Shown here: one piece after another, positions 6,054-44,685 of the stretch
Position numbering within the stretch: the stretch's first letter is position 1
Layout: the number at the start of each line of letters is the position of its first letter
Assembly (NCBI GenBank): GCA_944326335.1
Contig: CALVDM010000009.1
Coordinates: forward strand, 19,022-83,021
DNA length: 64,000 bases
Source of the DNA: an uncultured Bacteroidales bacterium
GTDB taxonomy: Bacteria > Bacteroidota > Bacteroidia > Bacteroidales > UBA932
Direction of reading: 5' to 3'
Made by a program: the position numbers and the translations under genes
Notes under the pieces: generated by a model
What the model saw: the letters and a program-made list of their open reading frames with translations, nothing else
What the model was told of the DNA's origin: nothing
Database searches by the model: none

Positions 6054-6067
6054 GTCTTATCCTCCGG

Positions 6068-8103: not shown

Positions 8104-8158
8104 AAATGTTTGTCTTAAATTAAAAAACTTTCAAGGATTCTCTGCCGGTGCAGAATGA

Positions 8159-8196
8159 CAAAGATAAAAAAAATGATGGAAATTTTCTTAAATTTG
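8159..8196. promoter_or_regulatory. Divergent promoters of recA (minus) and rlmN (plus)
   Basis: The minus strand of 8159-8166 reads TATCTTTG, a perfect -7 box for recA; the plus strand of 8189-8196 reads TAAATTTG, a perfect -7 box for rlmN. The two promoters face away from each other but their cores lie side by side, so polymerase binding at one may hinder the other. The plus-strand start point would fall near 8203, which rules out rlmN starts upstream of it. Confidence 0.7.
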
Positions 8197-8223
8197 CGGA
8201 AATTGAAATCGCGACTGACGGAC

Positions 8224-27742: not shown

Positions 27743-28636
27743 ATGGATAATCTTTTGAAAAAGTACAATTACAGTCCGGACAAGGTGGCCATCGACCACG
27801 GACTTGAAATGATAGCATCCAATATAGACAATGTGATGTCACCGGATGTGCTGAAGCACTGCCTTTCGATGCTCGACCTCACTTCGCTGAAAACAGACGA
27901 CACCCCTGCCGGCATAAGAAGGCTCGTGGAGAAGGTCAACGGGTTCAGGACGGAATTTCCGGACTATCCTCTTCCTGCATCCGTGTGCGTATATCCGAAT
28001 TTCGCGTCTGTCGTGAAGGAGGCACGTGCTTCCGGAGATGTGCATGTGACAGTGGTTTCCGCATGCTTCCCTTCGTCGCAGAGTTTCCGTGAAGTGAAGC
28101 TCAGGGAGTGCGAGCTGGCTGTCCTCGGAGGAGCCGATGAGGTGGATATCGTGCTGTCTCTCAGCTCATTCCTTTCTGGAGACTATGATGCTGCGTCGGA
28201 TGAGATAAAGGCTGTCCGTGAGACCATTGACAAGGCGGCTGCGGCATCTGGCAGGAAAGTGACCCTGAAGGTCATTCTGGAGACGGGATTGCTGCTGAAG
28301 CACGAACTCATTGCCATGGCCTCTTTCCTTGCCATGGAGGCCGGCGCCGACTTCATAAAGACTTCCACGGGTAAGGTAAGCGTCAACGCAACACCTGCAG
28401 CGGCATACGTGATGTGCCAGTGCATATCGGAATATTACAAGGCCACAGGCCGCAAGGTCGGCTTCAAGCCCGCCGGTGGCATATCAACATCGCTCGATGC
28501 CGTATGCTATTATTCCATAGTCTCGACGATACTCGGCAGGGACTGGCTTGACAAGAGCCTTTTCCGGTTCGGTGTCAGCCGCCTGGCGAACACCATGCTT
28601 TCGGACATAGAGCAAAGAACCGTGAATTATTATTAG
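27743..28636 (+). CDS. deoC: Deoxyribose-phosphate aldolase
   Basis: Cleaves 2-deoxyribose-5-phosphate to acetaldehyde and glyceraldehyde-3-phosphate in deoxynucleoside catabolism. The 297-residue TIM-barrel protein has the Schiff-base Lys in FIKTSTGKVS and the second conserved Lys in VGFKPAGGIST. Its length is that of the longer DeoC type. It is the last gene of the run and is followed by a terminator. Confidence 0.95.
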   Translation: MDNLLKKYNYSPDKVAIDHGLEMIASNIDNVMSPDVLKHCLSMLDLTSLKTDDTPAGIRRLVEKVNGFRTEFPDYPLPASVCVYPNFASVVKEARASGDVHVTVVSACFPSSQSFREVKLRECELAVLGGADEVDIVLSLSSFLSGDYDAASDEIKAVRETIDKAAAASGRKVTLKVILETGLLLKHELIAMASFLAMEAGADFIKTSTGKVSVNATPAAAYVMCQCISEYYKATGRKVGFKPAGGISTSLDAVCYYSIVSTILGRDWLDKSLFRFGVSRLANTMLSDIEQRTVNYY

Positions 28637-28695
28637 ACAGGCTTAAGGATAATGCATCGCATAAGAAGCAGTCCTGACACCTTCAAATAACGATT

Positions 28696-28740
28696 AAAAG
28701 GCGTTTAATGACCGTTGAAAAGGTGATTGAACGCCTTTTG
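28696..28740 (+). terminator. Terminator after deoC
   Basis: AAAAGGCGTT (28696-28705) and AACGCCTTTT (28730-28739) are perfect inverted copies around a 24-base loop. It marks the end of the housekeeping run and the border of the AT-richer island. The T-run is short, so efficiency is uncertain. Confidence 0.72.
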
Positions 28741-28806
28741 CTTTGCAGACATGAAAAACTCCTTAAGGTGCGGTGAGTACGGGGCCTTGATGGATTATAG
28801 TGATAT

Positions 28807-28855
28807 TATTATGTATCGGACTGTCATTTGATCAGAAAAGACTTATGTAAATTTG
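28807..28855 (+). promoter_or_regulatory. Promoter of the NVEALA island
   Basis: TAAATTTG (28848-28855) is a perfect -7 box 21 bases before the signal peptidase ATG. TTTG at 28827-28830 lies 17 bases upstream, slightly close for a -33. The sequence at 28807-28826, ending in ACTGTCA, resembles the upstream half of the duplicated internal promoters at 33583 and 36744. The rest of the 240-base gap (28637-28876) holds the deoC terminator and nothing else I recognise. Confidence 0.65.
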
Positions 28856-28876
28856 TAGAAAGAAGCATTCGCATCC

Positions 28877-29746
28877 ATGAACCATCCGACAATCAATAAA
28901 ATTCTGCATATAGTTTTATTCACATTGATGCTGACTTTAATATTAGCGGTTTTTATTCCTGTTTTCTTTTTTGACCAATTCAGTATAGGAGGAATGTCAA
29001 TGTCCCCTGCCCTTAAGTCAGGTGACCATATCATGGTCAACAAAATCCTTTTCGGAGCCAGAATATATACCGGCTATGATTTTTCTTCACCGGTTTTGGA
29101 GAGTTTCAGAGTGCCTGGAACAAGAAAAATATGCCCCGGTGACATAGTCGTATTCAATAATCCCCGTGGCCGCAACAGAAAGAGAATAGAATTCAGAATA
29201 AACTATGTGTATGTAAAACGTTGTATTGGTTGTCCCGGCGATAGTGTAGGCATAACCAACGGATACTATACAAACAATCATTTTTCCCAAATACTGGGGT
29301 CCTACAGAAACCAGCTGGAATTGAGCATGACGCCTGATTCGGTCTTGAAAGAGAGAGGAACGTATATTTCAACGATTCCATATATAAAAGAACTGGGATG
29401 GACAATCCGGGACTTCGGACCCATATACATTCCAAAAAAAGGAGACACCATAAGCATGAATCCTTTTACCGCGAAACTGTACTCTATGCAGATTGAATAT
29501 GAGACCGGCTTTAAGCCCATTGTCATGGATGGTATTGTACAACTGGACGGAAAGACAATAGACACATATTGTTTCAGAGGCAACTGGTATTTTTTTGGAG
29601 GTGACAATGTATTGGATTCAAAGGACAGCAGATATATAGGTCTTGTACCGGAAGAATATATCGTGGGAATAGCGACAAGAAAACTATACAACAGAAATCC
29701 GGATACAGGAAAAAAGGACTTCAGAATCTTTTTTGAAAAAATATAG
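28877..29746 (+). CDS. Second type I signal peptidase, island-specific
   Basis: A 289-residue S26 signal peptidase with one N-terminal transmembrane helix (about residues 10-32), catalytic Ser41 in GMSMSPALKSGD, general-base Lys114 in YVKRCIGCPGD and the late box GGDNVLDSKDSRYIG, so all catalytic residues are present. It is much shorter than the housekeeping LepB at 19141 and AT-rich. It opens the island behind its own promoter and is followed after nine bases by the transglutaminase-like gene. A specialised peptidase next to a peptide precursor that has an Ala-Leu-Ala site (NVEALA) suggests it may process that peptide; this link is inference from position. Confidence 0.92.
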   Translation: MNHPTINKILHIVLFTLMLTLILAVFIPVFFFDQFSIGGMSMSPALKSGDHIMVNKILFGARIYTGYDFSSPVLESFRVPGTRKICPGDIVVFNNPRGRNRKRIEFRINYVYVKRCIGCPGDSVGITNGYYTNNHFSQILGSYRNQLELSMTPDSVLKERGTYISTIPYIKELGWTIRDFGPIYIPKKGDTISMNPFTAKLYSMQIEYETGFKPIVMDGIVQLDGKTIDTYCFRGNWYFFGGDNVLDSKDSRYIGLVPEEYIVGIATRKLYNRNPDTGKKDFRIFFEKI

Positions 29747-29755
29747 ACAAAAATC

Positions 29756-31708
29756 ATGACTTCTGTACTGACTAGATTTATATCGGCTATAGCCGTACTG
29801 GGAATCCTATTCACGCTGTTTTCTTGCTGTAAGTACGAAAAGGACATCAGGACTGTTCTCCATTATGCAGGAAACAACCGTGAAGAATTGGAGAAAGTTC
29901 TGGAATATTACCGCAATACAGACGGTAATAATCTTAAATATAAAGCTGCGGAATACCTGATAAAAAACATGACACTTCATAAGTCATATCCGGCAGAATT
30001 ATATATGGATTATGCGAGAGAACTTGATTCATTATTCACAAATGAGACAAGTCCGAAAATCATAGTGCAGAAGACAGAGGAGATCTCGGAAAAATATCGT
30101 CCCCGAATGAAGGCGGAATATGATATCCGCACCATTACGGCCGATTATCTGATCTGGAATATTGAATATTCCTTCAGATTATGGGAGACCAGCACTTTCC
30201 TTTATCATCTTGATTTCAATGAGTTTTGCGAATATGTACTTCCGTACAAATGTGTAGAACTGCAGCCCATCACTCGTTGGAAAGAAAAATACAATGGTGT
30301 GCGTCGAGGCAATTTGGATGTCATGACATATCTGCATGATTTGAAATACAATGCAAGAAAAGCTGTCGAAGTCATACAGGTACCAATGGCAGACAAGGTA
30401 TTTACCGGAACAAGACCGGTGGACTGCATTGAACTTGTTGATATGAGTGCAATGATGAATATGCAGGTCGGTACATGCTATGAGCGTTCAATACTGGGCA
30501 TGATGAATTGCAGGAGCAAGGGAATACCTGTATCTTTGGATATGGTTCCGAACTGGGGGGACAGGCAAGACCCTCACTTTTGGAACAATGTCAACATGGA
30601 GAATAACAGGAACATTGCGTACAGTCCCTTCACTTACAATCCTGGTGATGCAAATAATCTGGATAGGGTATATGCAAAAGTATACAGATACTCATACAAG
30701 CCCGACCCTGTCATGTTGGATGCTATTATTGATGATGGATTTCTTCCGAGACTTTTTTCGAATCCATTTCTTAAGGATGTCACCGCTGAATATGCAAAGA
30801 CAACGGACATAAGCATTAGAATTCAGTCTCCAAAGAAGACTGAATCCAAATATGCATATCTATGCGTATTCAATAAAGATTGGCAGCCAATCGCTGTAAC
30901 AAAAATCAAACACGGGAAAGCTGAATTTCTGGAGGTTGGAGTTGGTGTGCTATATCTTATTGTATCATACCAGGACGGTGAAGCCAGACCTTTGAGCAAG
31001 CCTTTTTTCGTAAATCTTAAAGGAGAAATTTCTGAAATCACAATAGACAAGTCCAGGACAACAGATCTGCATATTACAAGAAAGTTCCCGGCATTCCGTC
31101 ATATTTTCAAGATTTATGACAAATTAGGCTCTTTTACAATAAGCGCATCTAATTCAATGCATTTCTCAAAAAGTGATATCTTATGCTCCACTCCTGAAAA
31201 TGAACTGTTTTCCGGCCAGTTCACCCAGCGGGATACCACTGCAAAAAGATTCTGGAAAATCGGACATCATGACAATGATATATGCTATTTGGCAGCAATA
31301 TATTTCCATGATGCGGATACGGATTCCCTTCTGACAGCAAATATCGTAAACCCATGCAGTGATTCGGACGGCAATCCGAGTTCAAATCTCACAGACGAAA
31401 AACTGCTTTCATATTATGCACTTCGAAAAGAAAGTGAAGATATAATTTTTGATTTCGGCCAACCGGTCAGGATAGGACGGATAACATACATAAAACGCGG
31501 GGACGGCAATAATATACGTCATGGTGATACGTATGAACTTTATTATTGGGATGACGGATGGATACTCCATGACAGACAATTGTCAAAGGATATCAGCCTG
31601 GATTTCAAGGGACTTCCCTCAGATGCCCTGTACTACATAAAGTGCGTCACACGAGGAAAGCAGAACCGGATATTCACGTATCAGGATGGCGAGCCAAGAT
31701 GGTATTGA
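29756..31708 (+). CDS. Transglutaminase-like lipoprotein
   Basis: A 650-residue lipoprotein with signal and lipobox TLFSC (Cys24). A helical N-terminal third precedes a transglutaminase-like core with Cys241 in VGTCYERSILGMM and His274 in DPHFWNNV, resembling the family's C...HxWN pattern; a clear third Asp after the His is not seen, so catalytic competence is uncertain. The C-terminal half looks like beta-sandwich domains, the last (from about residue 520) resembling a galactose-binding/discoidin fold. Proteins of this build occur in Bacteroidales without known function. It lies between the signal peptidase (9 bases) and the ligase-like gene (4 bases). Confidence 0.75.
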   Translation: MTSVLTRFISAIAVLGILFTLFSCCKYEKDIRTVLHYAGNNREELEKVLEYYRNTDGNNLKYKAAEYLIKNMTLHKSYPAELYMDYARELDSLFTNETSPKIIVQKTEEISEKYRPRMKAEYDIRTITADYLIWNIEYSFRLWETSTFLYHLDFNEFCEYVLPYKCVELQPITRWKEKYNGVRRGNLDVMTYLHDLKYNARKAVEVIQVPMADKVFTGTRPVDCIELVDMSAMMNMQVGTCYERSILGMMNCRSKGIPVSLDMVPNWGDRQDPHFWNNVNMENNRNIAYSPFTYNPGDANNLDRVYAKVYRYSYKPDPVMLDAIIDDGFLPRLFSNPFLKDVTAEYAKTTDISIRIQSPKKTESKYAYLCVFNKDWQPIAVTKIKHGKAEFLEVGVGVLYLIVSYQDGEARPLSKPFFVNLKGEISEITIDKSRTTDLHITRKFPAFRHIFKIYDKLGSFTISASNSMHFSKSDILCSTPENELFSGQFTQRDTTAKRFWKIGHHDNDICYLAAIYFHDADTDSLLTANIVNPCSDSDGNPSSNLTDEKLLSYYALRKESEDIIFDFGQPVRIGRITYIKRGDGNNIRHGDTYELYYWDDGWILHDRQLSKDISLDFKGLPSDALYYIKCVTRGKQNRIFTYQDGEPRWY

Positions 31709-31712
31709 CAAT

Positions 31713-33566
31713 ATGAAGAGATATCGAATAAAGGCTCAACAAATAATATCTGCGGCTTTATGGCTGGCAGAAGCTGTTGCTTTAGCTCTGCTGCTCAAGC
31801 ATGTTTCTGAACCAGGCAATACATCATATCATACCTATACCCTATACAAGGATACAGTATTGGCATTCATCATTTCCTTGCCGATGCTGGTAATGAATAT
31901 AAGGAAAATAGTATGGGGCTCTACTGATATACTCATCCTGTCCTTGGCAGGTATATATTTCGCATGTTCTATTATAAACCGAAGTATTGCTGCGAGTGTC
32001 GCCCTGCAGGAGGCATTCCCGTACGCGGTGCTTTATTTCTGCATAAGAGTCTTCATCTGTTCCGGAAAAGGCATTTCCGCAGCATATCTTGTAGTTATTC
32101 TGAGCCTATGGTCATGCTGTGAATCCTCAACCGGTCTTTTGCAGGCATTTGGATACAGGCCATCCGGACATTCCGCATTCGGAATAACAGGAAGTTTCCA
32201 GAATCCCGGACCTTATGGAGGTTTCATTTCCATAATGATGTCCATCTCCATAGCATACAGTATACGGTTTGGAAAGTCTTGGAAATATGCATATTCAATA
32301 CTGCTCAAGGCAACGAGTGAAAAAAAACGCCGGCATACATATCTCAAGTGGATTGTCATGAGGCTTATGCCATTGGTCAGTACCGCAGCAGCGACCTTTC
32401 TCGCATTTCTTGTACTGCCGTCATCCAGGAGTCGCGCAGGATGGCTTGGCCTTTGTTTCGCATTGCTGTTGTTTGTTTGCAGAGGAAAAAAATCCAAAAA
32501 CTGGTTCAAACAGCATAAGGCAGCAACAGTAATGCTCCCATTTGTTGCTGCACTTGTATTTACAGGTACTTTCCTCATGAAAAAGGATTCGGCTTTGGGT
32601 AGATTGCATATATGGAATATGGAAATACATGCAATCGCTTCTGCACCGCTCATCGGCAATGGCCCGGGAACGGCGCTTGGAGCGTACGGGAAAGCACAGG
32701 AAGCATACTTTCGAGGTGAAAACCATAAATCATGGGAAACAAGAGTTGCCGGATGTCCGGAATATGCATTCAATGAATATCTGAAAACAGGGATGGAGAC
32801 AGGCATACCGGGACTGCTGCTCATTGTGTCAATATCCATCGTATCTCTAATAACTTTGCTGAAAACCGATAGTATATTTGCATACGGATTAGCAGCAGCT
32901 CTGGTTTTCGCATTTTTCTCATATCCTCTTTCTGTAAAGCAATTGACTGTATTGTACACATTTCTTTTCGGGGTCTCTGAGTATTATGGAAGAACGGGAG
33001 AAAAGCCTGCGGCGATGATATACAGACCATTCAGATATTGCATATCAGTATTAGTGGCTTCTGCATTATTGTTTGCCATACTTCCGCTAGGACATATATT
33101 TTCGGAGAGACAGGACTCCGCTGAAGTCTGGTCCATGTCCCGTCATTGGACAGGGCCAGGTTTTTATATGGAAGCGGCAGAAGAACTGGAGAAAATATAT
33201 CCTGAAATGTCGTGGAACTACCGCTATCTTTACGATTATGGCTACGCACTTCACAAAGTCGGGGATTATAGCAAAAGTACAGAGGTTCTTCTCAAGGGGA
33301 CGGAATTGTCATCCGATCCTATGTTCCATAACATAATCGGAAGAAACTACGAGTCCGTAGGTCTTTACAAAGAGGCAGAGAAGGAATATCTCATATCACA
33401 TTATATGGTACCATGCCGGCTGTATCCTATGGTTCTCTTGTTCGAAATGTATTCAGTTACAGGTCAGGTAGAAAAAGCCGAAAATACAAGAAGGGCTATT
33501 ATGAATATGCCTGTCAATCCGAAAAACAAGACTATGACGGGACTGAAAGAAAGAATTGAAAAATAA
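31713..33566 (+). CDS. O-antigen ligase/Wzy_C-like membrane protein with TPR tail
   Basis: A polytopic membrane protein of 617 residues from the ATG at 31713 (MKRYRIKAQQIISAALW). About 11 hydrophobic segments span residues 10-470; the Wzy_C landmarks include SRSRAGWLGLCFALL and GNGPGTALGAYGK. The C-terminal 150 residues form TPR-like helices (DYSKSTEVLLKGTELSSDP and following). Wzy_C proteins are O-antigen ligases, polymerases or protein O-glycosyltransferases; no sugar-synthesis genes are nearby, so a role in modifying the island's peptide or lipoproteins is possible but unproven. An in-frame ATG at 31686 would overlap the previous gene. Its 3' end is duplicated in degraded form at 36699. 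Confidence 0.83.
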   Translation: MKRYRIKAQQIISAALWLAEAVALALLLKHVSEPGNTSYHTYTLYKDTVLAFIISLPMLVMNIRKIVWGSTDILILSLAGIYFACSIINRSIAASVALQEAFPYAVLYFCIRVFICSGKGISAAYLVVILSLWSCCESSTGLLQAFGYRPSGHSAFGITGSFQNPGPYGGFISIMMSISIAYSIRFGKSWKYAYSILLKATSEKKRRHTYLKWIVMRLMPLVSTAAATFLAFLVLPSSRSRAGWLGLCFALLLFVCRGKKSKNWFKQHKAATVMLPFVAALVFTGTFLMKKDSALGRLHIWNMEIHAIASAPLIGNGPGTALGAYGKAQEAYFRGENHKSWETRVAGCPEYAFNEYLKTGMETGIPGLLLIVSISIVSLITLLKTDSIFAYGLAAALVFAFFSYPLSVKQLTVLYTFLFGVSEYYGRTGEKPAAMIYRPFRYCISVLVASALLFAILPLGHIFSERQDSAEVWSMSRHWTGPGFYMEAAEELEKIYPEMSWNYRYLYDYGYALHKVGDYSKSTEVLLKGTELSSDPMFHNIIGRNYESVGLYKEAEKEYLISHYMVPCRLYPMVLLFEMYSVTGQVEKAENTRRAIMNMPVNPKNKTMTGLKERIEK

Positions 33567-33623
33567 TGTTATCGATTTGTACTATTCTGTTATTCGATTG
33601 TCAATGACAAAAAATACATTTGT
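33533..33623 (+). repeat. Duplicated segment, copy 1 (ligase 3' end plus promoter)
   Basis: From TATGACGG (inside the last codons of the ligase gene) to TTTGT, this segment matches 36699-36784. The downstream 62 bases (33562-33623) are aligned without gaps and differ from 36723-36784 at only three positions; upstream, the copies differ by a five-base gap and a few substitutions. Confidence 0.92.
33583..33622 (+). promoter_or_regulatory. Internal island promoter, copy 1
   Basis: TACATTTG at 33615-33622 is a -7 box. There is no -33 TTTG at the usual spacing; instead an inverted repeat TTGTCA-A-TGACAA (33598-33610) abuts it, and two direct repeats, ATCGATTTGT (33571) and TTCGATTGTC (33593), lie upstream. 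The layout suggests dependence on a bound regulator. It would transcribe the thioredoxin-like, NVEALA and propeller genes. Confidence 0.7.
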
Positions 33624-33648
33624 CGATAGAAAAAGCATTACCAAGAAC

Positions 33649-34200
33649 ATGAATAAACTATTTGTACTGTTAGTCATATTTTCAATGACATCCTGTGCCG
33701 AACAACAAATATCCAGGACACTCAAGAATTTCCGGGCATCAACGATCACTATTCCGGAAGACCTGCAGAAAATTCACCGGAGGAGCCAGACCACAATTGA
33801 AGGCTGCGACACAGGAACACCTGTCATGATTATCTACAATGACTCATTGGAGTGCAGTTCGTGCAGAATAAGTCACCTTATCGATTTTCTTGACCTTTAT
33901 GAACTTTCAGACTCTCTAGGGACATTCAAGGTCATGACTATATTCTCACCGCTGGAGTATGAATATGATGATGTTCTGTCGAAACTAATTATCAACAATT
34001 TCGAGTATCCTGTATACATTGATTTCAGCGGAACATTCAGACAGCAGAACAAGTCCATTCCAGAAGACCGGAGATTCCACAGTTTTCTCATCAACAGTGC
34101 CGGACACCCTGTTTTCGTCGGAGATCCGACAGCAAGTGACCAGATGTGGACACTATTTCTAAAATCGCTTGAAGATATCGGAAAAGACTGTCAGGAATGA
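33649..34200 (+). CDS. Thioredoxin-like lipoprotein (TlpA-type)
   Basis: A 183-residue lipoprotein with lipobox SMTSC (Cys16) and a thioredoxin-fold domain: strand VMIIYND, the redox motif CSSC at residues 69-72, a long helix after it and the late strand HSFLINSAGHPVFVG. It probably acts in the periplasm on disulfides. The start at 33649 is chosen because the -7 box at 33615-33622 precludes the in-frame upstream ATGs at 33556 and 33604. It precedes the NVEALA gene by 39 bases; since that peptide has three cysteines, it is a plausible but unproven partner. Confidence 0.87.
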   Translation: MNKLFVLLVIFSMTSCAEQQISRTLKNFRASTITIPEDLQKIHRRSQTTIEGCDTGTPVMIIYNDSLECSSCRISHLIDFLDLYELSDSLGTFKVMTIFSPLEYEYDDVLSKLIINNFEYPVYIDFSGTFRQQNKSIPEDRRFHSFLINSAGHPVFVGDPTASDQMWTLFLKSLEDIGKDCQE

Positions 34201-34239
34201 CAGTCGCACTTATTATTAACAATTAAATTTTCAAAAAAC

Positions 34240-34464
34240 ATGAAAAAGAAAATTATTTTCGCAGCGGTAGCCGTATTCATGGCAGCATCTGTTTCCGTTT
34301 TCACCTACATCAGCAGTGAAAGAAACGCAATGGATGAACTGTTCAACGCCAACGTGGAGGCACTGGCACAAGATGAGATTGTTGTCGGACCTTTGTGTAT
34401 GGAATGCCCTAATGCTGCATGTACAAGCCTTGGTGAAGTCTATGTGGAGAATATCAGAGCATGA
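34240..34464 (+). CDS. NVEALA domain peptide precursor
   Basis: A 74-residue protein of the NVEALA family (PF14055), known only from Bacteroidales. It has a basic start MKKK, a hydrophobic segment (about residues 5-23), a short polar linker, the signature NVEALA at residues 38-43, and a 31-residue tail with Cys53, Cys56 and Cys61. The ALA at 41-43 fits the -3/-1 rule of signal peptidase I, so the tail could be released as a mature peptide; cleavage is inference. Its stop overlaps the start of the first propeller gene (ATGA), implying coupled translation. Its first 20 bases after the A of ATG are identical to the start of the last propeller gene (37946). Confidence 0.9.
   Translation: MKKKIIFAAVAVFMAASVSVFTYISSERNAMDELFNANVEALAQDEIVVGPLCMECPNAACTSLGEVYVENIRA
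34241..34260 (+). repeat. Shared 5' gene end, copy 1
   Basis: Twenty bases covering the start codon and codons 2-7 of the NVEALA gene are identical to 37946-37965 at the start of the fourth propeller gene. Similarity continues at lower level through the signal sequence, and AATTAAA precedes both starts. Confidence 0.85.
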
Positions 34465-35501
34465 AAATAACCCTGTTTCTGGCCAATGCTGCTTTACTTT
34501 CAGCATTGGTCATTTCCTGCGTTAAGGAAAAAGACCATTTCCTACGAACACTTTCACTTGCTCCTGTACCTCTTGAAGCCGTTGATTCAATAAATATAGA
34601 CCGTTTCAATCTGTTTCAGGCGAGAAGCGTAGTCGCACTTGACAGCAGTTGGATATTATTGTCTTCAGTTAAGGGGGACTACAAACTTATGTTCTTAAAT
34701 CTCTGTACATCGGAACATTTCTTTGCAATCAGAAAGGGCAGAGGCCCTGGAGAAATGATTAACGGGAACAGTCTTCACAGATATGGCGACGGGGCGGCAT
34801 TCTATGACAGCAATAACGCAACATGTGTGAAGATTAGCCTTAATAAGACAGCAGCAGGATCTTCTATAGCAATTGATACAATAGGTGTTTTTAATAGTGG
34901 CCCTTCGAAACCTGTATTTATGACAACTTGCGGGTCTGGAGGATTCATATCAGGCAACCTCACGGATGACAAAGTCTGGTATTCCTATTATGACAGCACT
35001 GGTTGCATACTGTCTGATATCGATATGCTGCAACTTGATGAATTTGCCGCCGGAGGGGATACAAGAATTTCATGGATGCTGAGTTCCGTATATACATCCG
35101 ACCCTGAAGGAAAGAGAGTATGTGTTGCTAACGTAATATCCCCTTCGCTATCATTCTCCAAAGTGGATGCAGGAATACTTCGGGAATATAAACGGTATTC
35201 AAATGCTCCATGTGGTATAACAAACGGAAGGGTGACCGGAGAATTCAGGAGTGCCTTCAACGGTATAGACTCAGATGACAAATATGTCTATGTGTTATAT
35301 TCAGGAAACAGGATACGGGGAGGGACACTGCCGTCAAATGAGTGCAGACACCTTATCGTATATGACTGGGACGGCAATCCGGTAAAGCGTTATATTTTAA
35401 ACAGGAATGTATGTTCTGTGCATATTGACAGCGGCACGCTATGGTGCGCCAGCACATACCCTGAAAGTTGCGTGTACAGGTTCGATATGCCAAAGCCTTA
35501 A
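34461..35501 (+). CDS. Six-bladed beta-propeller lipoprotein 1 (BF3164-like)
   Basis: A 346-residue lipoprotein (lipobox VISC, Cys20) built of repeated beta-strand units, as in the BF3164/TolB-like 6-bladed propeller families of Bacteroidales. The motif GRGPGE is at residues 93-98, and the closing strand YDWDGNPVKRYIL resembles those of the other three. It is the most diverged of the four. It overlaps the NVEALA gene by four bases, suggesting stoichiometric production of the two. Such propellers usually bind ligands or proteins; no catalytic residues are evident. Confidence 0.83.
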   Translation: MKITLFLANAALLSALVISCVKEKDHFLRTLSLAPVPLEAVDSINIDRFNLFQARSVVALDSSWILLSSVKGDYKLMFLNLCTSEHFFAIRKGRGPGEMINGNSLHRYGDGAAFYDSNNATCVKISLNKTAAGSSIAIDTIGVFNSGPSKPVFMTTCGSGGFISGNLTDDKVWYSYYDSTGCILSDIDMLQLDEFAAGGDTRISWMLSSVYTSDPEGKRVCVANVISPSLSFSKVDAGILREYKRYSNAPCGITNGRVTGEFRSAFNGIDSDDKYVYVLYSGNRIRGGTLPSNECRHLIVYDWDGNPVKRYILNRNVCSVHIDSGTLWCASTYPESCVYRFDMPKP

Positions 35502-35529
35502 GATGCCGGCGAATAAATAAATTAAAGCT

Positions 35530-36609
35530 ATGATGAAGCATATTCTGTATTGTATAGGTTTTTTCCTGATAGTTTCCGCATGCGGACCGGAAAACATAGT
35601 GCAGGATGCCAGGATTAGGCTCGCAAGGCCGGAACAAAGGCTCACTATAGAAAAGGATTCCACATTTGACGAGAAATTCCCACAGACATTACACATCGGG
35701 GACATATTCATGGCAAATGATTCAGTCATGCTCCTGTATGACATGTCGGCATCCGGGAGCGGAGGATACTTCTATAAGGCGTATTCTGCTGAGGACTATT
35801 CCTATATGGGAGAATTCCTGAGGGAAGGAAGAGGGCCCGGGGAAGTCTTGTCTCCAGATTTATGTGCTACATTCAGAACATCACAGGACGCCAAGACAAG
35901 ATGCTACATATTTGAGAAAATGCTTTATCAATCATTCAGCATAGACCTGTCAGAGACTATTGACAGCAAGGTCAGCATCATGAAAAAAATCTCGGAATTG
36001 CCCGTTAATACATTATATGCCAGGCCATATCGGGATTCTCTGCAGTTTGTAATAAACATAGAGAACGACAATTTGATATCCCATATCATTGACACAAATG
36101 CAGAAAAACTGAAAACATTCAGACTGTATCCGGAGGATATCTCTGCTGAACGGTATCTTCCCCAATTAGGGAACAACGTATTAATTAATGAGAATCTTGT
36201 TGCATTGGTAATGCTCGCCATTCCGCAGATAAATTTCCTGAATCTTGAGACTGGCGCCGTCAATTCTGTCGCGGTGGACAGAAAATACAGGGACTGGAGG
36301 AATATTCTTACAGCTGCGACAGACATACCGATGTATATGAAATCAATACAATACTACAATAACGCTGAATCGACAGCTGATTATATTATGGCATTATATC
36401 TGGACAAGAAGATAGATGACATAGTCAAAGGAAGGCCTGGCCCGTCCCCTCATATCCATATATTCGACTGGGAAGGGAACTTTCTGTACGCTCTTCAGAT
36501 AGACGAGAATATCTCAAGAATTGCATACGACTCCGGACGAAAGTTCATGTACGGTCTGGATACCGATGAAGGCAGAATATACAGATATGACCTGTCCGGA
36601 CTGTTGTAG
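35530..36609 (+). CDS. Six-bladed beta-propeller lipoprotein 2 (BF3164-like)
   Basis: A 359-residue lipoprotein (lipobox VSAC, Cys18 from the first Met; the second Met is an alternative start). GRGPGE is at residues 100-105 and the C-terminus reads IFDWEGNFLYALQI ... YRYDLSGLL. It is a close paralogue of propeller 3 (same closing sequence RYDLSGLL and similar blade spacing), pointing to duplication. It starts 28 bases after propeller 1. The following 241-base gap contains the second copy of the duplicated promoter segment. Confidence 0.84.
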   Translation: MMKHILYCIGFFLIVSACGPENIVQDARIRLARPEQRLTIEKDSTFDEKFPQTLHIGDIFMANDSVMLLYDMSASGSGGYFYKAYSAEDYSYMGEFLREGRGPGEVLSPDLCATFRTSQDAKTRCYIFEKMLYQSFSIDLSETIDSKVSIMKKISELPVNTLYARPYRDSLQFVINIENDNLISHIIDTNAEKLKTFRLYPEDISAERYLPQLGNNVLINENLVALVMLAIPQINFLNLETGAVNSVAVDRKYRDWRNILTAATDIPMYMKSIQYYNNAESTADYIMALYLDKKIDDIVKGRPGPSPHIHIFDWEGNFLYALQIDENISRIAYDSGRKFMYGLDTDEGRIYRYDLSGLL

Positions 36610-36698
36610 ACTGATACGTCTCGGATACCAGTGCAGGGTATGTAGATAAAACTGTACGGCCGGATTAAGTGCCAGGGCCATTAATGCCAATGTATTTA

Positions 36699-36784
36699 TA
36701 TGACGGAACTGAAGGAATTGACAATAATGTTATCGATTTGTACTATTCCGTTATTCGATTGTCAATGACATAAAATACCTTTGT
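36699..36784 (+). repeat. Duplicated segment, copy 2
   Basis: Matches 33533-33623. The upstream part, TATGACGG(A)ACTGAA and following, is a decayed remnant of the ligase gene's last codons lying outside any gene; the downstream 62 bases carry the promoter with three substitutions. The remainder of the gap (36610-36698) holds nothing I recognise. Confidence 0.92.
36744..36783 (+). promoter_or_regulatory. Internal island promoter, copy 2
   Basis: TACCTTTG (36776-36783) is the -7 box, preceded at the same distance as in copy 1 by TTGTCAATGACA and the upstream direct repeats. It would drive the leader ORF and propellers 3 and 4. As in copy 1, no -33 box is found at the standard spacing. Confidence 0.7.
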
Positions 36785-36803
36785 ATAAGGAGAAAGGGCT
36801 GTT

Positions 36804-36854
36804 ATGAGATGGACTCTGTCGCTTTTTGCTTTTAGTGATTACTGCATTTTATGA
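36804..36854 (+). CDS. Candidate 16-residue leader ORF before propeller 3
   Basis: ATG at 36804, encoding MRWTLSLFAFSDYCIL, ends in a TGA that overlaps the propeller 3 start (ATGA). AAGGAGAAAGG lies 7-17 bases upstream, an unusually strong Shine-Dalgarno-like sequence for this phylum. It could couple translation to the propeller gene or be a shortened remnant of a lost signal-peptide gene such as the thioredoxin-like one of module 1. Expression is unproven. Confidence 0.35.
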   Translation: MRWTLSLFAFSDYCIL

Positions 36855-37903
36855 AAATCAAACGATATTATCTTATTCCCGCCCTTTTGCTGGTGTCATC
36901 ATGTAACCATCAGGGAATCATTGATGATGCACCGGTTGAAGTGTGCAAACCAGATAAAGTTGTGTCAGTCGATATTGACACAACTTTGCATTGTACTTTC
37001 CCGGAAGTCCTGAATGCTTTCATGATACAGATTGTCAAAGATTCCATTCTTGTTTTCCAGGAGCATACCAGTGGCAATAACTCCTGTTATTTCAAAGCGT
37101 ATTCAACAAATAACTTCGAATATCTGGGAGAATTTATCAGAAATGGCAGAGGCCCGGGGGAAATGTTGCGCCCTCACATTGTCAGATGCTGTTCATCTGA
37201 GGAATACTTGAATATAAATATTAATTCTTCAGAAAAAGCATATTCTGTCGATGTGGAAAAGACACTTGAATCGGGGAATCCTGCCATTGTCCGGAGTTTT
37301 GACCTGCCTTCAAGCACTGTTGATTGGCTTCCTTTGACTGGCGACAGACTATTTACATTACAATCCGAAGAAAGGCATTTTACAATCAAGGTTCTGGATG
37401 GAAATGGGAAAACGTTGAATACTTTTAATTTCAGTCATGATATATCTGACGAAAATTACTTAACATATCTAAGTAGCATACTGACACGAAATGGAAAGAG
37501 CGGGAAAGTCGCTGAAATTATGATATTTTTCCCGCAGATCAACATATTCGACACGGATAACGGCGCTGTGCGTTCTTTCGCGGTCAGCCGGGCATACAGG
37601 AACTGGAAGTCCGTTATAAGCCGGCAGATTAATCTTGAGACGACGACACAGTATTATGCTGATGCGGCAACAGGAACGGACTACATATTCGCCGCCTATA
37701 AGGACGTTCCGTTAGAACAGATAATAAAAGGCGGGAGTGGCACGTCAATACATGTCTTTGACTGGGACGGGAATTTCAAGTATGACATTAAGGTAAGGGA
37801 AGATATCAATTACATGACATTTGACAGAAGGACAAAGAAACTGTACTGCATAGAGAAGCAGGAAGGGAAGATTATACGCTATGACCTGTCCGGACTGCTG
37901 TAG
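36851..37903 (+). CDS. Six-bladed beta-propeller lipoprotein 3 (BF3164-like)
   Basis: A 350-residue lipoprotein (lipobox VSSC, Cys18) with GRGPGE at residues 99-104 and the C-terminus IHVFDWDGNFKYDI ... IRYDLSGLL. It is the nearest relative of propeller 2 in the window. It is the first full-length gene behind promoter copy 2. The two propellers differ most in the middle blades, as expected if they bind different ligands, although decay or drift is also possible. Confidence 0.84.
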   Translation: MKIKRYYLIPALLLVSSCNHQGIIDDAPVEVCKPDKVVSVDIDTTLHCTFPEVLNAFMIQIVKDSILVFQEHTSGNNSCYFKAYSTNNFEYLGEFIRNGRGPGEMLRPHIVRCCSSEEYLNININSSEKAYSVDVEKTLESGNPAIVRSFDLPSSTVDWLPLTGDRLFTLQSEERHFTIKVLDGNGKTLNTFNFSHDISDENYLTYLSSILTRNGKSGKVAEIMIFFPQINIFDTDNGAVRSFAVSRAYRNWKSVISRQINLETTTQYYADAATGTDYIFAAYKDVPLEQIIKGGSGTSIHVFDWDGNFKYDIKVREDINYMTFDRRTKKLYCIEKQEGKIIRYDLSGLL

Positions 37904-37944
37904 GATATTGCTGTCATGAATGATATTGTTGACAATTAAAACTC

Positions 37945-39069
37945 GTGAAAAAGAAAATTATTTTCTCCATGTCGGTCGTATTCGTGGCCGCAGTTGTATT
38001 CTGCCGCTGTACGGGCAGCACAGGGGATATTGACGGGACTGTCATACCGTTCAGGGAAATGCAGGAAAGGACATACAGTGATATTGCGGGGAAAATTGCC
38101 GGAAGCATCAGGTACATAGTGTACAATGCGACATCGGAGGAACAGCTCTTTTCCGAGCCGGACAAGGTCATATTCAGGAATGGCATGCTGTACATACATG
38201 ACTGGCAGAACAGGAGGATAATTGCTGTCGGAGAACACGGGAACTTCGTGTCCTCACTGGACAAGAGGGGACGCGGTCCGGGGGAATACCTTCAGATTAC
38301 CGATTTTGATGTTGACGGCAGCGGCGGCATATGGGTCATTGACGGTCAGAAGGACAGACTGCTGCATTATGACAGCGGCATGGCCTGCATTGGAACCAGA
38401 GAGCTGCCTTTTGAAGCCAACTATATCAGATGCCTCGGCAACGGGAATTTTCTTGTTGGGCTCACATCATGGGACACCTCGGAATATGGCGGGAGAAAGG
38501 TGCTTGTGACAGATATGGACCTGAATGTCTCGGCGGAGCTTATGGAATATGATGAATTCACCGACCCCAACTATGCCTTCCCTTCCGCCGGATTCGTAGG
38601 GAAAGGAGACAATGTACTGTATCACCAGCCCATAGATGACAGCGTGTATGAAATAACCCCCGAAGGAAAGATTACCGAAATCTACAGGTATGATTTCGGT
38701 GCCAGGACAGTCCCTGATGAAATGAGGGCGGACATTGAACGCCACAGGGATGAGTTTGACAGATACAGGACTCTGGTCAAATCGCAATATATTGATGACA
38801 GAATCATTGCCGGCAGCATACTTGAAGGCCGGAAAATCAATGATTTCATAATAGACAGGGAACGCGGGACAATCTATCTTCAGGATGACTTATTCAGGTC
38901 AATATCTGTCATAGGGATATCGGACGGGCACATCATATTCCGGATATCTGATAATGACGACAGTTTTGAGCCCCTTCTTCCGGAAGATATCCGTATCCGG
39001 CTTGAAAACGGGAATGACATCTTAGGAATTCTGGATGTGAGCGACATTCCAAGACTTATTTTTGAGTAA
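37945..39069 (+). CDS. Six-bladed beta-propeller protein 4 with NVEALA-like signal
   Basis: A 374-residue protein of the 6-bladed propeller type (DUF5128/BF3164-like), with GRGPGE at residues 109-114. Its GTG start and signal sequence MKKKIIFSMSVVFVAA copy the beginning of the NVEALA peptide gene, nearly to the base, so the gene appears to be a join of an NVEALA 5' end to a propeller body. Cys20 and Cys22 follow the hydrophobic stretch, but neither sits in a good lipobox (VVFC, FCRC), so lipidation is doubtful. Base composition is richer in GC than the other three. It starts 41 bases after propeller 3 and ends 30 bases before the TolC-like gene. Confidence 0.82.
   Translation: MKKKIIFSMSVVFVAAVVFCRCTGSTGDIDGTVIPFREMQERTYSDIAGKIAGSIRYIVYNATSEEQLFSEPDKVIFRNGMLYIHDWQNRRIIAVGEHGNFVSSLDKRGRGPGEYLQITDFDVDGSGGIWVIDGQKDRLLHYDSGMACIGTRELPFEANYIRCLGNGNFLVGLTSWDTSEYGGRKVLVTDMDLNVSAELMEYDEFTDPNYAFPSAGFVGKGDNVLYHQPIDDSVYEITPEGKITEIYRYDFGARTVPDEMRADIERHRDEFDRYRTLVKSQYIDDRIIAGSILEGRKINDFIIDRERGTIYLQDDLFRSISVIGISDGHIIFRISDNDDSFEPLLPEDIRIRLENGNDILGILDVSDIPRLIFE
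37946..37965 (+). repeat. Shared 5' gene end, copy 2
   Basis: Identical to 34241-34260. Here the start codon is GTG where the NVEALA gene has ATG; the identical stretch begins at the T of the start codon. Confidence 0.85.
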
Positions 39070-39099
39070 CTTTACAACTCTGCTGACTGAAACTTTCTG

Positions 39100-40584
39100 A
39101 TGAAAACCGTACACTCATACATACCTGTACTTGCATGTGTGCTCGCGCTGAATGCCGGTCCGACGGCAAATGCACAGCGTATGACCCTGGACGAGGTGAT
39201 TGCCACAGCTCGCGAAAGGTCCGTACCGGCACTGGCCGCCAAGTCCACCTTCATATCAAGCTACTGGGAATACCGTTCATACAAGGCCAGCAGGCTTCCC
39301 TCACTCAGCCTTTACGGCAATCTCGCCTCATTCGACAGGTCGCTACGCCAGCTGCAGAACTATGAGACAGGAGATCTTGTCTATACCAGCAACTACAACA
39401 TGCAGAACAGTATAGGGCTTGCGATAAGCCAGAATGTCACATTCACGGGGGGAACGATTTCTCTGTATTCCGACCTTTCCAGAATAGACGAATTCGGCAG
39501 CCAGAGGCACAAGACATGGTATGCACAGCCGGTGTCATTCAGTTATACACAGCCGATTTTCGCATACAACCAGTTCAAATGGGAAAAGAAGATATCCCCG
39601 AAGGAGTACGAACGTGCCCAAAGGGAATACATCGAGTCCATGGAAGAAGTAACCATCCAGGCAACTGAACTGTACTTCAGTCTCCTTATTGCTCAGATGA
39701 ACCACGATAAGGCCGTCTCCAACTACGGCAACACCAGAATGATGTACTCGGTCGCGACTGAAAGGCTGAAATTGGGAAGTGTGACAAGGGATGAATATCT
39801 CCAGCTGGAACTCCGGATGCTGAATGACAGCATCAGCATAAACGAGACATCCGTCAGGGTCAGGGAGGAACAGATGGCCCTCAATTCGCTTCTCGGGTAT
39901 GACGAGAAATGTGAAATCACACCTGTGCTTGAAAGCAGGCTGCCGGACATTTGGATGGACTACGACATGGTCATGGGAAAGGCTCTGGAAAACTCGTCAT
40001 TCATGTTGGAAAATGAAATCAAGACCCTTACGGCAGAATCAGACATAGCCAAGGCGAAAGCTGACCGCGGGGCACGTGTGTCTTTCAATGCGAAATTCGG
40101 TCTTGGCAATTCTGACAGCATGTTCCGCGAAACCTACCGCAATCTCCTGGACCAGGAAGTGTTCGGATTCACATTCAGCATCCCCATCTTCGACTGGGGA
40201 CTCGGGGAAGGGCGCGTCAGCCAGGCCAAGGCAAAGGCAGACGTTGTGAAGGCGGAAGTGGAACAGGCGGAGAACGACTATAAGAGGAAGGTATTCACCG
40301 CAGTCGGGCAGTTCAACAGCCAGAAAAGCCAATGCACGGTGTCAAAAAGGGCATCGGAAATAGCGGAGGAAAGATATTCGCTCATAATAGACAAGTTCCG
40401 CAGCGGAAACGCCTCAGTAATGGACCTGAATACTGCCAGGCAGGAATACGATGAGGCGATGGACAAATATATGAACGATGTAAGCGACTTCTGGAGCATC
40501 TACTATGAAATCAGAAAGATAACATTGTATGACTTCATGCGTTCGGAAGACATCGGTGTCGATTTTAATGAACTCCTCAAATAA
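39100..40584 (+). CDS. TolC-family outer-membrane efflux protein
   Basis: A 494-residue outer-membrane channel protein with a signal peptide ending near TANAQ and two OEP repeats made of long helices with short barrel segments (LGLAISQNVTFTGG-type strand in the first, FGFTFSIPIFDWGLG in the second). TolC trimers form the exit duct of tripartite pumps. It is followed after five bases by the fusion-protein gene and then two RND permeases. No lipobox is present. A TATTTTTG at 39057-39064 could be a -7 box, but it lies within the preceding gene's last codons and may be chance. Confidence 0.93.
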   Translation: MKTVHSYIPVLACVLALNAGPTANAQRMTLDEVIATARERSVPALAAKSTFISSYWEYRSYKASRLPSLSLYGNLASFDRSLRQLQNYETGDLVYTSNYNMQNSIGLAISQNVTFTGGTISLYSDLSRIDEFGSQRHKTWYAQPVSFSYTQPIFAYNQFKWEKKISPKEYERAQREYIESMEEVTIQATELYFSLLIAQMNHDKAVSNYGNTRMMYSVATERLKLGSVTRDEYLQLELRMLNDSISINETSVRVREEQMALNSLLGYDEKCEITPVLESRLPDIWMDYDMVMGKALENSSFMLENEIKTLTAESDIAKAKADRGARVSFNAKFGLGNSDSMFRETYRNLLDQEVFGFTFSIPIFDWGLGEGRVSQAKAKADVVKAEVEQAENDYKRKVFTAVGQFNSQKSQCTVSKRASEIAEERYSLIIDKFRSGNASVMDLNTARQEYDEAMDKYMNDVSDFWSIYYEIRKITLYDFMRSEDIGVDFNELLK

Positions 40585-40589
40585 GGGTT

Positions 40590-41663
40590 ATGAAACATAA
40601 TGCAGGATATGTTACAGCGGTGCTCTCATCGCTTGTCATTGCCGCCTGCGGCGGAGGCGAAATTACGGACAGCGGCCTGAGGCAGCAGTATGCCGGGCAG
40701 CAGAATCCCGTTGATGTCATCATACTTGAAGAGAAGGACTTCTGCCACCAGCTGGTCTCGAACGGAAGACTGTCGGCCGCATCCAAAAGCCAGCTGACAT
40801 TCCTCTCGGCAGGGACGGTGAAGGCCGTCATGTGCCGTGAGGGAGACCGCGTCATGAAAGGGGATACCATAGCCTTGCTTGAGTCGGCAGATAAAGAATA
40901 TGCTCTCGAGGCTGCGGAACTGGCATTCAAAAAAGCCGAGCTGGACATGCTTGACGAGCTTGCCGGGTACGGATACGGTGGAAAGGCTGCCGGGGACATC
41001 CCTGAAGAGATGCTCTCCATAGCAAAGCTCCGTTCCGGGTATTCAACGGCAGAAAATGCTCTGAAGCAAGCCAGATATGAGCTGGACGGATGTTTCCTGA
41101 TCTCGCCGTTTGACGGCAGGATTGCGGACATGAAACTCTCGGCATACACTGCGGCGCCGTCGGAACCGGCATGCAGCGTCATTGATGACACCAGACTGGA
41201 GGTGAGGTTTCCTGTACTTGAGTCGGAATACCTTTTCGTGGAGCCGGGACTCCACGTGAAGGTCACCCCATATGCGGATGCCTCCATAACGGCGGAAGGA
41301 CGCATATCCGGAATCAACCCCACTGTGGACGAGAACGGTCAGATAATGGTCACGGCAGTGATTGAAAATCCCGGAAGGCTCATTGACGGGATGAATGTCA
41401 GGATAACTGTGGACAAGGCTACGGAAAACCAGCTTGTGGTACCGAAAAGCTCCGTCGTCATAAGGGACAATGAAAACGTCCTGTTCAGATACAGCGGAGG
41501 TCGGGCCAGATGGACATACGTCAATATAACTGACTCCAATTCGGAGAGTTATTCGGTGGAGGCCAACAGGGAGAGGAATGCGGAGCTGGCCCCCGGAGAC
41601 ACTGTCATAGTGTCCGGAAACCTCAATATCGCCGACGGTTCGGAGGTCACAATAAAAGACTGA
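40590..41663 (+). CDS. RND efflux membrane fusion lipoprotein
   Basis: A 357-residue HlyD/AcrA-type adaptor with lipobox IAAC (Cys20). It has the biotinyl-lipoyl-like half motifs (TFLSAGTVKAVMCREGDRV and GCFLISPFDGRIADMKL), a short alpha-hairpin between them, a beta-barrel domain and a membrane-proximal domain. It bridges the RND permease and the TolC channel in the periplasm. The hairpin is short, as is common in Bacteroidota adaptors. It lies between the TolC-like gene (5 bases) and the first permease (4 bases). Confidence 0.92.
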   Translation: MKHNAGYVTAVLSSLVIAACGGGEITDSGLRQQYAGQQNPVDVIILEEKDFCHQLVSNGRLSAASKSQLTFLSAGTVKAVMCREGDRVMKGDTIALLESADKEYALEAAELAFKKAELDMLDELAGYGYGGKAAGDIPEEMLSIAKLRSGYSTAENALKQARYELDGCFLISPFDGRIADMKLSAYTAAPSEPACSVIDDTRLEVRFPVLESEYLFVEPGLHVKVTPYADASITAEGRISGINPTVDENGQIMVTAVIENPGRLIDGMNVRITVDKATENQLVVPKSSVVIRDNENVLFRYSGGRARWTYVNITDSNSESYSVEANRERNAELAPGDTVIVSGNLNIADGSEVTIKD

Positions 41664-41667
41664 ACAG

Positions 41668-44600: not shown

Positions 44601-44685
44601 GATAATAGCAGGTATGACCGCCGGAACGCTCATAAGCCTGTTTTTCGTACCGCTGCTCTATTATGAAGTCTACAGGAAGAAATAG
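41668..44685 (+). CDS. RND efflux permease, subunit 1
   Basis: A 1005-residue proton-driven inner-membrane transporter with the duplicated RND fold: TM1 near residues 12-30, periplasmic porter loop, TM2-6 from about residue 330 (LVALTIPTALIVSMLVF), the second large loop and TM8-12 from about residue 850. The TM4 proton-relay region reads GVGMMVDNTIVLTDN, keeping one Asp where AcrB has two. It overlaps the second permease gene by 23 bases; two different permeases with one adaptor suggest a mixed trimer as in MdtBC, which is inference. Substrate unknown. Confidence 0.94.
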   Translation: MLGKLIDRPVTVTMGLLAVIVLGIVSIRLLPISLIPDIDIPEIAVRVSAPEMSSRELDETVMRILRQSLMQTSSLRELRSEARDGSGTVRLTFAEGTDMDYAFIEVNEKIDRSMGSLRDLGRPQVLMSDASDIPAFYLNLTLKDPDVKFEQLSSFAEDVLAKRIEQLPEVAMVDVSGCVHPEILVLPDEDALRQAGLDMDGFEKALMAANVSLGSLTIRDGEYRYNVKFQSFASDVSDIENIFIDCGGRIFRLKDLADVRLAPAERTGLVRSDGMEAVSMAIIKQSSVKMSALKSRMEELAGRLGEDYPEIGFAVTRDQTELLEYSINNLIQNIVTGIILACIVIFLFMQDFRSPVLVALTIPTALIVSMLVFHIAGLTINIISLSGLILGVGMMVDNTIVLTDNITSRWQRGESLRKAVLKGTSEVMAPMLSSVLTTCVVFIPLIFLSGIAGAMFHDQAMAVTIVLLTALVITVTVIPVYYWQWYRRLPSFRPSPLLSRFSFSWATGVYEGVLKWLFRHRWVGWALFAVSAAGTVLCLVLMPKTRLPEITYTDTMLSIDWNSNLSLEQNTARVGILEKEAGSSALQITSMVGQQQFILQHGPDIDMSGAAVYIRCADGRSLDATIGRLSETLRSHWPDAIFSFGTSGNIFDIVFAEKEAGLVARLRPVSDPEILPEKLEKVLSDIRESLPDMDIPAPQMKRDVLYVADAERMALYGVSYDAILTSLKNALNGNELFSIIQGNRSIPVVMGLDRKGLSEIISGQSVRAGDKEIPLSAVMCQSWEEDLKCIVSGPEGVFYPLEIEAEGRRAVRIAMDTIREAVGRNGDFEVDFSGSYFSNLNMVREMIMILLVSLVLLYLILASQFESLVQPLIILSEIVTDLFFALAVLWICGVSVNLMSLIGLVVVCGIVINDSILKIDTINRLRKNGLGLQHAVMEAGQRRLKAIVMTSLTTILSVCPFLARGSMGDDLQYPMSLVIIAGMTAGTLISLFFVPLLYYEVYRKK

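Follow-up and report, generated by a model that had tools for sequence, protein, structure and literature searches.

The window analysed here, a stretch of 64,000 nucleotides from an uncultured Bacteroidales bacterium (contig CALVDM010000009.1, positions 19,022 to 83,021), carries on its forward strand, at 28877-47824, a gene cluster organised around a 74-residue precursor of the NVEALA family. Since the leaders of such precursors are conserved, their tails are hypervariable and the similarity of the tails follows that of the adjacent propeller proteins, the tail is taken to be the core that carries the function, with the propeller as its cognate partner. An earlier sequence-only reading had placed a dedicated exported-peptide system here, and this is backed by a recurrent association of the genes within the window's genus and across families; the cluster is more than an accident of neighbourhood. 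Our preferred explanation, held with a confidence that stops a little short of even, is a modular secreted-peptide system whose core is most likely a narrow-spectrum antibacterial peptide and whose propeller is an immunity or holding protein.

In the proposed mechanism the precursor would be anchored in the inner membrane through its hydrophobic N-terminus with the tail facing outward, and a shared set of periplasm-facing proteins (an S26 signal peptidase, a transglutaminase-fold protein, a CxxC protein and a WaaL-fold/TPR protein) would recognise the constant leader, release the cysteine-rich core and then finish it. The core would leave through a dedicated pump composed of TolC, an adaptor and two RND proteins. 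Each core has its own propeller lipoprotein, encoded beside it and varying with it in sequence, which would hold or neutralise it in the periplasm, and new cassettes of core plus propeller could be swapped in behind the constant leader. Antibacterial use is the first choice because of these core/partner cassettes, the excess of propellers over precursors, the patchy distribution (19 of 200 genomes), the carriage on plasmids and the fulvocin-adjacent relatives.

It is possible, though rather less than an even bet, that these genes represent a new class of exported peptide: Sec-inserted, matured wholly within the periplasm by a signal peptidase of its own together with a transglutaminase-fold lipoprotein and a WaaL-fold/TPR enzyme devoid of the usual His, exported by a tripartite system with two RND pumps, and made as strain-specific cores guarded by cognate beta-propeller lipoproteins, with the cassettes distributed over Bacteroidales chromosomes and plasmids. 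The sequence-only reading had captured the exported-peptide system as such and had left out the RND pump, the arrays of several precursors, the break between leader and core and the plasmid carriage.

Constant leader and variable core

The precursor of the window scored 53.5 bits against model A1, built from 39 precursors with the window's own included. This model replaced an early NVEALA model that had drifted into the thioredoxin-like family and whose labels were not used as precursors. Among 109 precursors from the loci fetched, the layout was a short positive start and a hydrophobic segment followed by the motif, and several precursors occurred per genome, in arrays. After two without a recognised motif had been dropped, Ala closed the motif in 71 of 107; the other 36 had T, S, M, G, V or N at this position, and the motif ended a median of 23 residues beyond the hydrophobic segment (95 precursors). 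Because of this variable residue and of the distance from the hydrophobic segment, a standard signal-peptidase cut after ALA is not assured.

The 101 distinct tails ranged from 16 to 114 residues (median 43). Glu was the third residue after the motif in 90 of them, and 99 contained two or more cysteines, the number being even in 74 of these 99. The core subtype of the window, E[IV]..VG.LC...C, recurs in genomes G437, G410 and G307 and twice in G391.

For 34 pairs within single genomes whose leaders were at least 70% identical, the tails had a median identity of 30%. The DNA identity of paralogues over the leader stopped from 16 nt before to 29 nt after the sixth motif codon in all 41 within-genome pairs. 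A related locus, L112, was 85% identical to the window at the nucleotide level up to position 34366, beyond which it had another tail and another propeller; a relative of the window's cognate propeller was present there at a different position. The leader/core organisation typical of ribosomally synthesised and post-translationally modified peptides (RiPPs) is thus present, as judged from break points and divergence, and the break points fit a leader that stays constant while cores are exchanged, exchange being the interpretation that they suggest.

Pairing of cores with propellers

A downstream gene was visible for 105 precursors, the other four lying at the edge of a stretch; in 92 of the 105 this next gene was a same-strand propeller, and 88 of these propellers were within 400 nt. 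In a control count, a propeller came next for 87 of 110 precursors, including open reading frames (ORFs) so labelled in the ORF table, against 27 of 510 unlabelled genes; the corresponding values were 0-15% for the S26, transglutaminase-like, Wzy_C, CxxC and pump genes and 42/175 for the propellers themselves. The adjacent cognate partner expected for a bacteriocin with its immunity protein is therefore present.

The pairing was tested on 79 distinct pairs from 32 genomes (distance below 400 nt, tail of at least 15 and propeller of at least 250 residues). Across genomes, tail similarity correlated with propeller similarity (Spearman 0.276, p 0.0005 even with within-genome shuffling). The leader, though part of the same gene as the tail, did not track the propeller (0.06; p 0.48 with within-genome and p 0.05 with free shuffles), and the correlation between tail and leader was 0.124 (p 0.0015). 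In the 64 cases with a second propeller, the value was 0.236 (p 0.0005) for the cognate and 0.072 (p 0.51) for the nearest other; when the window's genus was compared with other families, these values were 0.183 (p 0.0015) and 0.063 (p 0.30). For the 30 most similar tail pairs, propeller similarity fell in the top tenth for 26 cognates versus 8 others. The earlier suggestion that the propellers bind the peptide finds indirect support in the co-variation of tail and propeller.

A lipobox was found in 76 of the 79 cognate propellers. An acidic run after the lipobox cysteine marks surface export; among the six residues that follow the Cys, none of the 76 had more than two acidic ones, and 16 had two. 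A role of the propellers as surface receptors is weakened by this count, and from their sequences they look periplasm-facing.

Genes of the cluster

The genes and parts of genes concerned are as follows, all on the forward strand.

28877..29746, +, S26 signal peptidase of the cluster, the second in the window; PF10502 94.2 bits (cut-off 22.9), Ser41 and Lys114 invariant in 17/17 aligned members
29756..31708, +, transglutaminase-fold lipoprotein with a CBM/discoidin-like region; Pfam 17.3 bits, below the cut-off of 23
31686..33566, +, WaaL-fold Wzy_C membrane protein with C-terminal TPR and F/Y at the usual His; 67 bits (cut-off 31.7)
33649..34200, +, CxxC lipoprotein, thioredoxin-like by motif; a longer ORF opens at 33556; no Pfam match above cut-off
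34240..34464, +, NVEALA precursor, 74 aa, three tail cysteines; PF14055 27.2 bits (cut-off 27)
34240..34368, +, constant leader of the precursor, codons 1-43, NVEALA at its end; from the break-point test
34369..34461, +, variable core of the precursor, of the subtype given above; from the tail comparison
34461..35501, +, cognate TolB_like propeller lipoprotein (Pfam), overlapping the precursor gene by 4 nt
35530..36609, +, TolB_like propeller lipoprotein (Pfam)
36851..37903, +, TolB_like propeller lipoprotein (Pfam)
37945..39069, +, DUF5128 propeller (Pfam)
39100..40584, +, TolC-type outer-membrane efflux protein (OEP); PF02321 131.9 bits
40590..41663, +, HlyD-type adaptor, co-occurring with precursors; PF13437 39.2 bits
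41668..44685, +, RND pump A (ACR_tran), clade A; PF00873 521.5 bits
44663..47824, +, RND pump B (ACR_tran), clade B; PF00873 334.9 bits

The nine genes named in the sequence-only reading, from the signal peptidase to the DUF5128 propeller, all lie on the forward strand at the coordinates claimed; the four same-strand pump genes that follow, up to 47824, had been overlooked. The second signal peptidase, with its Ser/Lys pair kept, the Wzy_C protein and the four propellers (three TolB_like, one DUF5128) were recognised by Pfam as predicted, and the NVEALA assignment passed narrowly. Two further names, the transglutaminase-like lipoprotein and the thioredoxin-like lipoprotein with its CSSC motif, had no Pfam match above cut-off and find their support in invariant residues, described below. 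The first S26 protein of the window (19141-20487; 139.7 bits) is likewise genuine by Pfam. The AT-richness claimed for the cluster was also borne out, G+C being 0.41-0.44 across 28001-38000 against 0.49-0.57 elsewhere in the window (2-kb bins). In the loci of the window's genus that carry pump genes (L146-L169), the precursor, enzyme and propeller genes were AT-richer than the pump genes wherever both were measured.

Maturation proteins

Cys241 and His274 of the transglutaminase-fold protein were invariant in 24/24 aligned family members. Its model reached a predicted local distance difference test score (pLDDT) of 85.6, and a Foldseek search with it gave weak whole-chain matches, mostly to transglutaminases, with a template-modelling (TM) score of about 0.15. 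Both cysteines of the CxxC lipoprotein were invariant in 20/20 aligned members; translation probably begins at the ATG at 33649, which gives 183 aa, rather than at the TTG at 33556.

The model of the Wzy_C protein (pLDDT 88.3) had the O-antigen ligase WaaL (7tpg) as its best solved match by fold; a sequence search of the Wzy_C domain alone against solved structures returned chance matches only. Arg306 and Trp310 were invariant, and the position of the usual His was F or Y in 37 of 38 aligned proteins. The His of the AHN-type motif is catalytic in Wzy_C proteins and O-antigen ligases, and it was present at that position in two generic Wzy_C proteins (L069 and L071). Of the features that define an O-antigen ligase, PF04932 and the WaaL fold were therefore found and the His of the AHN-type motif was not; because of the replacement by F or Y, the chemistry may differ from sugar ligation. 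The general topology of these proteins suggests that the active sites face the periplasm. A PADLOC screen for anti-phage defence matched none of the nine proteins tested.

Recurrence across genomes

Two draws were searched, 200 genomes of the window's genus and 295 Bacteroidales genomes. In the genus, precursors were present in 19 of the 200 genomes and Wzy_C-TPR proteins in 23, with both in 15 (p about 1e-13). A close relative of the adaptor occurred in 32 genomes, including 17 of the 19 with a precursor (p about 4e-14), and 14 of the 18 adaptor matches in precursor genomes were on the same contig within 10 kb of the precursor, the other four being on other contigs. The genus cut-offs (Wzy_C E <1e-20, adaptor E <1e-70) were chosen after the lists had been seen; at the tools' own limits the counts are 27 for Wzy_C and 39 for the adaptor. 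The genus draw overlaps A1 in the window's own row only.

In the order-level draw the Pfam model detected NVEALA in 17 of 295 genomes (14 above cut-off) and A1 detected precursors in 25, of which 18 were at E 1e-6 or better. Relatives of the Wzy_C-TPR protein (E 3e-15 or better) occurred in 23 genomes and were shared with 12 of the 18, where 1.4 were expected (p 3e-11), these two cut-offs also having been chosen after inspection of the lists. Because A1 was built from precursors of this same draw, some of them reached via Wzy_C loci, the order-wide matches and their overlap arise partly by construction. At the family level, 11 of 14 precursor families had the Wzy_C-TPR protein (p 1e-9). The p-values ignore shared descent, which is partly answered by this family-level test, one that does not require both genes in one genome. 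Of 57 order-wide precursor matches 22 had a Wzy_C match within 20 kb, many contigs being short. A phylum-wide draw of 148 genomes returned NVEALA solely from the window's own genome (1/148).

Eighteen stretches of the genus group, each of at least 14 kb and with a precursor, the window and L112 included, contained a propeller in 18 cases, the CxxC lipoprotein in 16, Wzy_C in 14, the transglutaminase-like gene in 13, S26 in 11, and TolC, adaptor and RND in 10 each. Genus loci were fetched around precursor matches with their neighbouring stretches (L112 entered via its Wzy_C gene); the order-level loci were fetched around precursor or Wzy_C matches, and for this reason the other-family half of the gene-set counts is biased toward co-occurrence. 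The co-occurrence that the sequence-only reading had proposed to survey is seen for the Wzy_C-TPR protein and the propellers; the signal peptidase and the transglutaminase-like protein are common but not universal. The contrary expectation, that NVEALA genes elsewhere consistently lack these neighbours, fails, as the association recurs in the window's genus and in other families. A midpoint-rooted tree of 27 RND proteins of the loci, read without support values, placed 15 with pump A and 11 with pump B, in two clades apart from five controls.

Plasmids and fulvocin C-related proteins

A 92.5 kb plasmid of P. vulgatus (NZ_CP096966.1 25155-66522) bears S26, Wzy_C, transglutaminase, redoxin and propeller genes together with four annotated NVEALA-propeller pairs. 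A 7.5 kb core recurs on a P. dorei plasmid at 99.9% identity; the match falls into two pieces and overlies an annotated transposase.

On a plasmid of B. finegoldii (L183, NZ_OY725911.1 53595-85154), Wzy_C, a transglutaminase/discoidin protein, DUF1573 and TlpA lie close to one of the fulvocin C-related proteins, which bear the name of a bacteriocin (NF033852, 111.9 bits against a cut-off of 35). The arrangement on contig C45 of genome G025 is similar, with a fulvocin C-related protein beside relatives of the cluster's Wzy_C and transglutaminase-fold proteins. As a pointer to antibacterial use, this link is thin.

Alternative explanations

The main rival to an antibacterial function is peptide signalling, in which the matured core would be a pheromone that the propeller binds in the periplasm and that a two-component system or membrane regulator close by reads. 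It appears unlikely. At ten loci of other families (L039, L074, L076, L077, L080, L081, L086, L088, L091 and L092) a precursor has a divergent neighbour, either a membrane protein whose C-terminal domain is of a DNA-binding type or a pair of kinase and regulator. The Pfam winged helix-turn-helix was above cut-off in L074 and L081, below it in L077 and L080 and absent from L076, and the kinase and regulator of L086 were confirmed; co-variation of core and partner is also compatible with a ligand and its receptor. However, no such regulator adjoins the locus of the window, a regulator of the ToxR-like or response-regulator type was found in 0 of 23 genus stretches, and Pfam shows no signalling domain in the propellers themselves. 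An envelope role, in which the peptide stays with the cell, joined to glycan, lipid or protein, or is a small component with a structural or chaperone task to which the propellers bind, seems improbable. The WaaL fold, the transglutaminase fold, the CBM/discoidin-like region and the seemingly periplasm-facing propellers would all suit it, but hypervariable, exchangeable cores with cognate partners would be unusual for a structural part, and the pump would require a different substrate. That the genes merely travel together as a loose genomic island and function separately is very hard to credit: the AT-rich core genes, the plasmid carriage and the incomplete sets are in keeping with an island, but the strong co-occurrence within and across families, the propellers adjacent to precursors and the cognate-specific co-variation are not.

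Several observations besides the regulators of the ten loci weigh against a dedicated system for an antibacterial peptide. The co-variation of tail and propeller could be due in part to co-inheritance of neighbours. The tails are mostly acidic (median charge -2), unlike cationic peptides. A number of precursor stretches showed no S26, no transglutaminase-like gene or no pump; besides the precursor, L165, L167 and L171 yielded a propeller alone or together with the CxxC gene; and the 41 kb viewed of the P. vulgatus plasmid has no annotated pump gene. One RND protein near precursors (G239, L087) clusters with the five controls, which are other RND-like proteins of the window's genome. The fulvocin-related proteins are a separate precursor family, and a search of 34 genomes detected them in two, both among the 23 with Wzy_C-TPR and none among the 11 lacking it; in the second positive genome, G053, the gene is on a different contig from Wzy_C.

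Relation to known systems

The GG-leader bacteriocins and RiPPs of Bacteroidales, for example the bacteroidetocins (PMC10352776), likewise combine a conserved leader, a variable core and dedicated export. The NVEALA precursors differ in that the leader ends in NVEALA with a Glu three residues on and has no GG; no C39 peptidase transporter was found among the window genes tested (28877-47824), and export would proceed by Sec plus RND with maturation in the periplasm. The fulvocin C-related proteins, in two cases beside relatives of the cluster's Wzy_C and transglutaminase-fold proteins, are longer and lack the NVEALA motif. The polymorphic CdiA-CT/CdiI toxin/immunity cassettes resemble the present system in their constant front, swappable end, adjacent cognate partner and partners without a precursor; here, however, a tiny peptide replaces the giant exoprotein, the partner is a propeller lipoprotein and the maturation genes are shared. 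Signalling of the agr type has in common a membrane-bound precursor, a variable core and a co-varying partner, but the NVEALA partner lacks a kinase and no AgrB-like gene was recognised in the window cluster. The Wzy_C protein shares its fold with WaaL and differs from it in the replaced His and the additional TPR domain. The logic of leader, core and partner is familiar; the system fits no known peptide family among those whose defining features could be tested.

Gut Bacteroidales are routinely annotated with NVEALA and BF3164-type proteins, for which no printed function was found. Literature searches, from which subscription papers were mostly absent, returned no paper naming NVEALA; those with family numbers, BF3164, propeller, locus tags and combined terms returned no description of such a system, PMC1887533 being the one match for BF3164. 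The closest printed match found is in tables of PMC10434189, where B. thetaiotaomicron has, near one another, BT0662 as O-antigen ligase, BT0664 as six-bladed propeller, BT0667 as lepB and BT0669 as RND adaptor; by their gene names BT0662-BT0669 would be the same locus, and the system therefore looks testable now. If the proposal is true, gut Bacteroidales possess a wide range of exchangeable small peptides for export, each matched to a partner, and some of them are encoded on plasmids that different species share. This would bear on mutual exclusion or recognition among gut strains, and it would enlarge the set of peptide-maturing enzymes and give RND pumps a new role.

Related loci and repeats

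In L112 the region ahead of Wzy_C (8122-10020) contains a HipA-like gene (PF07804), a propeller remnant and no more than the last 33 residues of the transglutaminase-like protein; tblastn found no S26 relative in this locus. The window's own genome has a second transglutaminase-like/Wzy_C pair (L111:8849-11829, contig C4 of G000) with no recognised NVEALA precursor nearby. A 177-residue protein with 33 cysteines past its first 30 residues (L098:11371-11904), without a Pfam or NCBIfam match, lies near Wzy_C, S26 and transglutaminase-like genes. Two small proteins with cysteine-bearing tails and another type of leader, DD.E.ASGDISVLG (L104:4074-4367 and 5919-6233), both adjoin Wzy_C, transglutaminase-like and DUF5128 genes.

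Within the window, a 95-nt direct repeat (82% identity) lies at 33541-33635, before the CxxC gene, and at 36702-36796, before the third propeller gene; among 183 loci, exact copies of a 19-nt core of it were confined to those from the same genome as the window. Where the precursor gene (34233-34292) and the DUF5128 propeller gene (37938-37997) begin, they are 75% identical over 60 nt, and the signal sequence of this propeller looks as if it were derived from a precursor leader.

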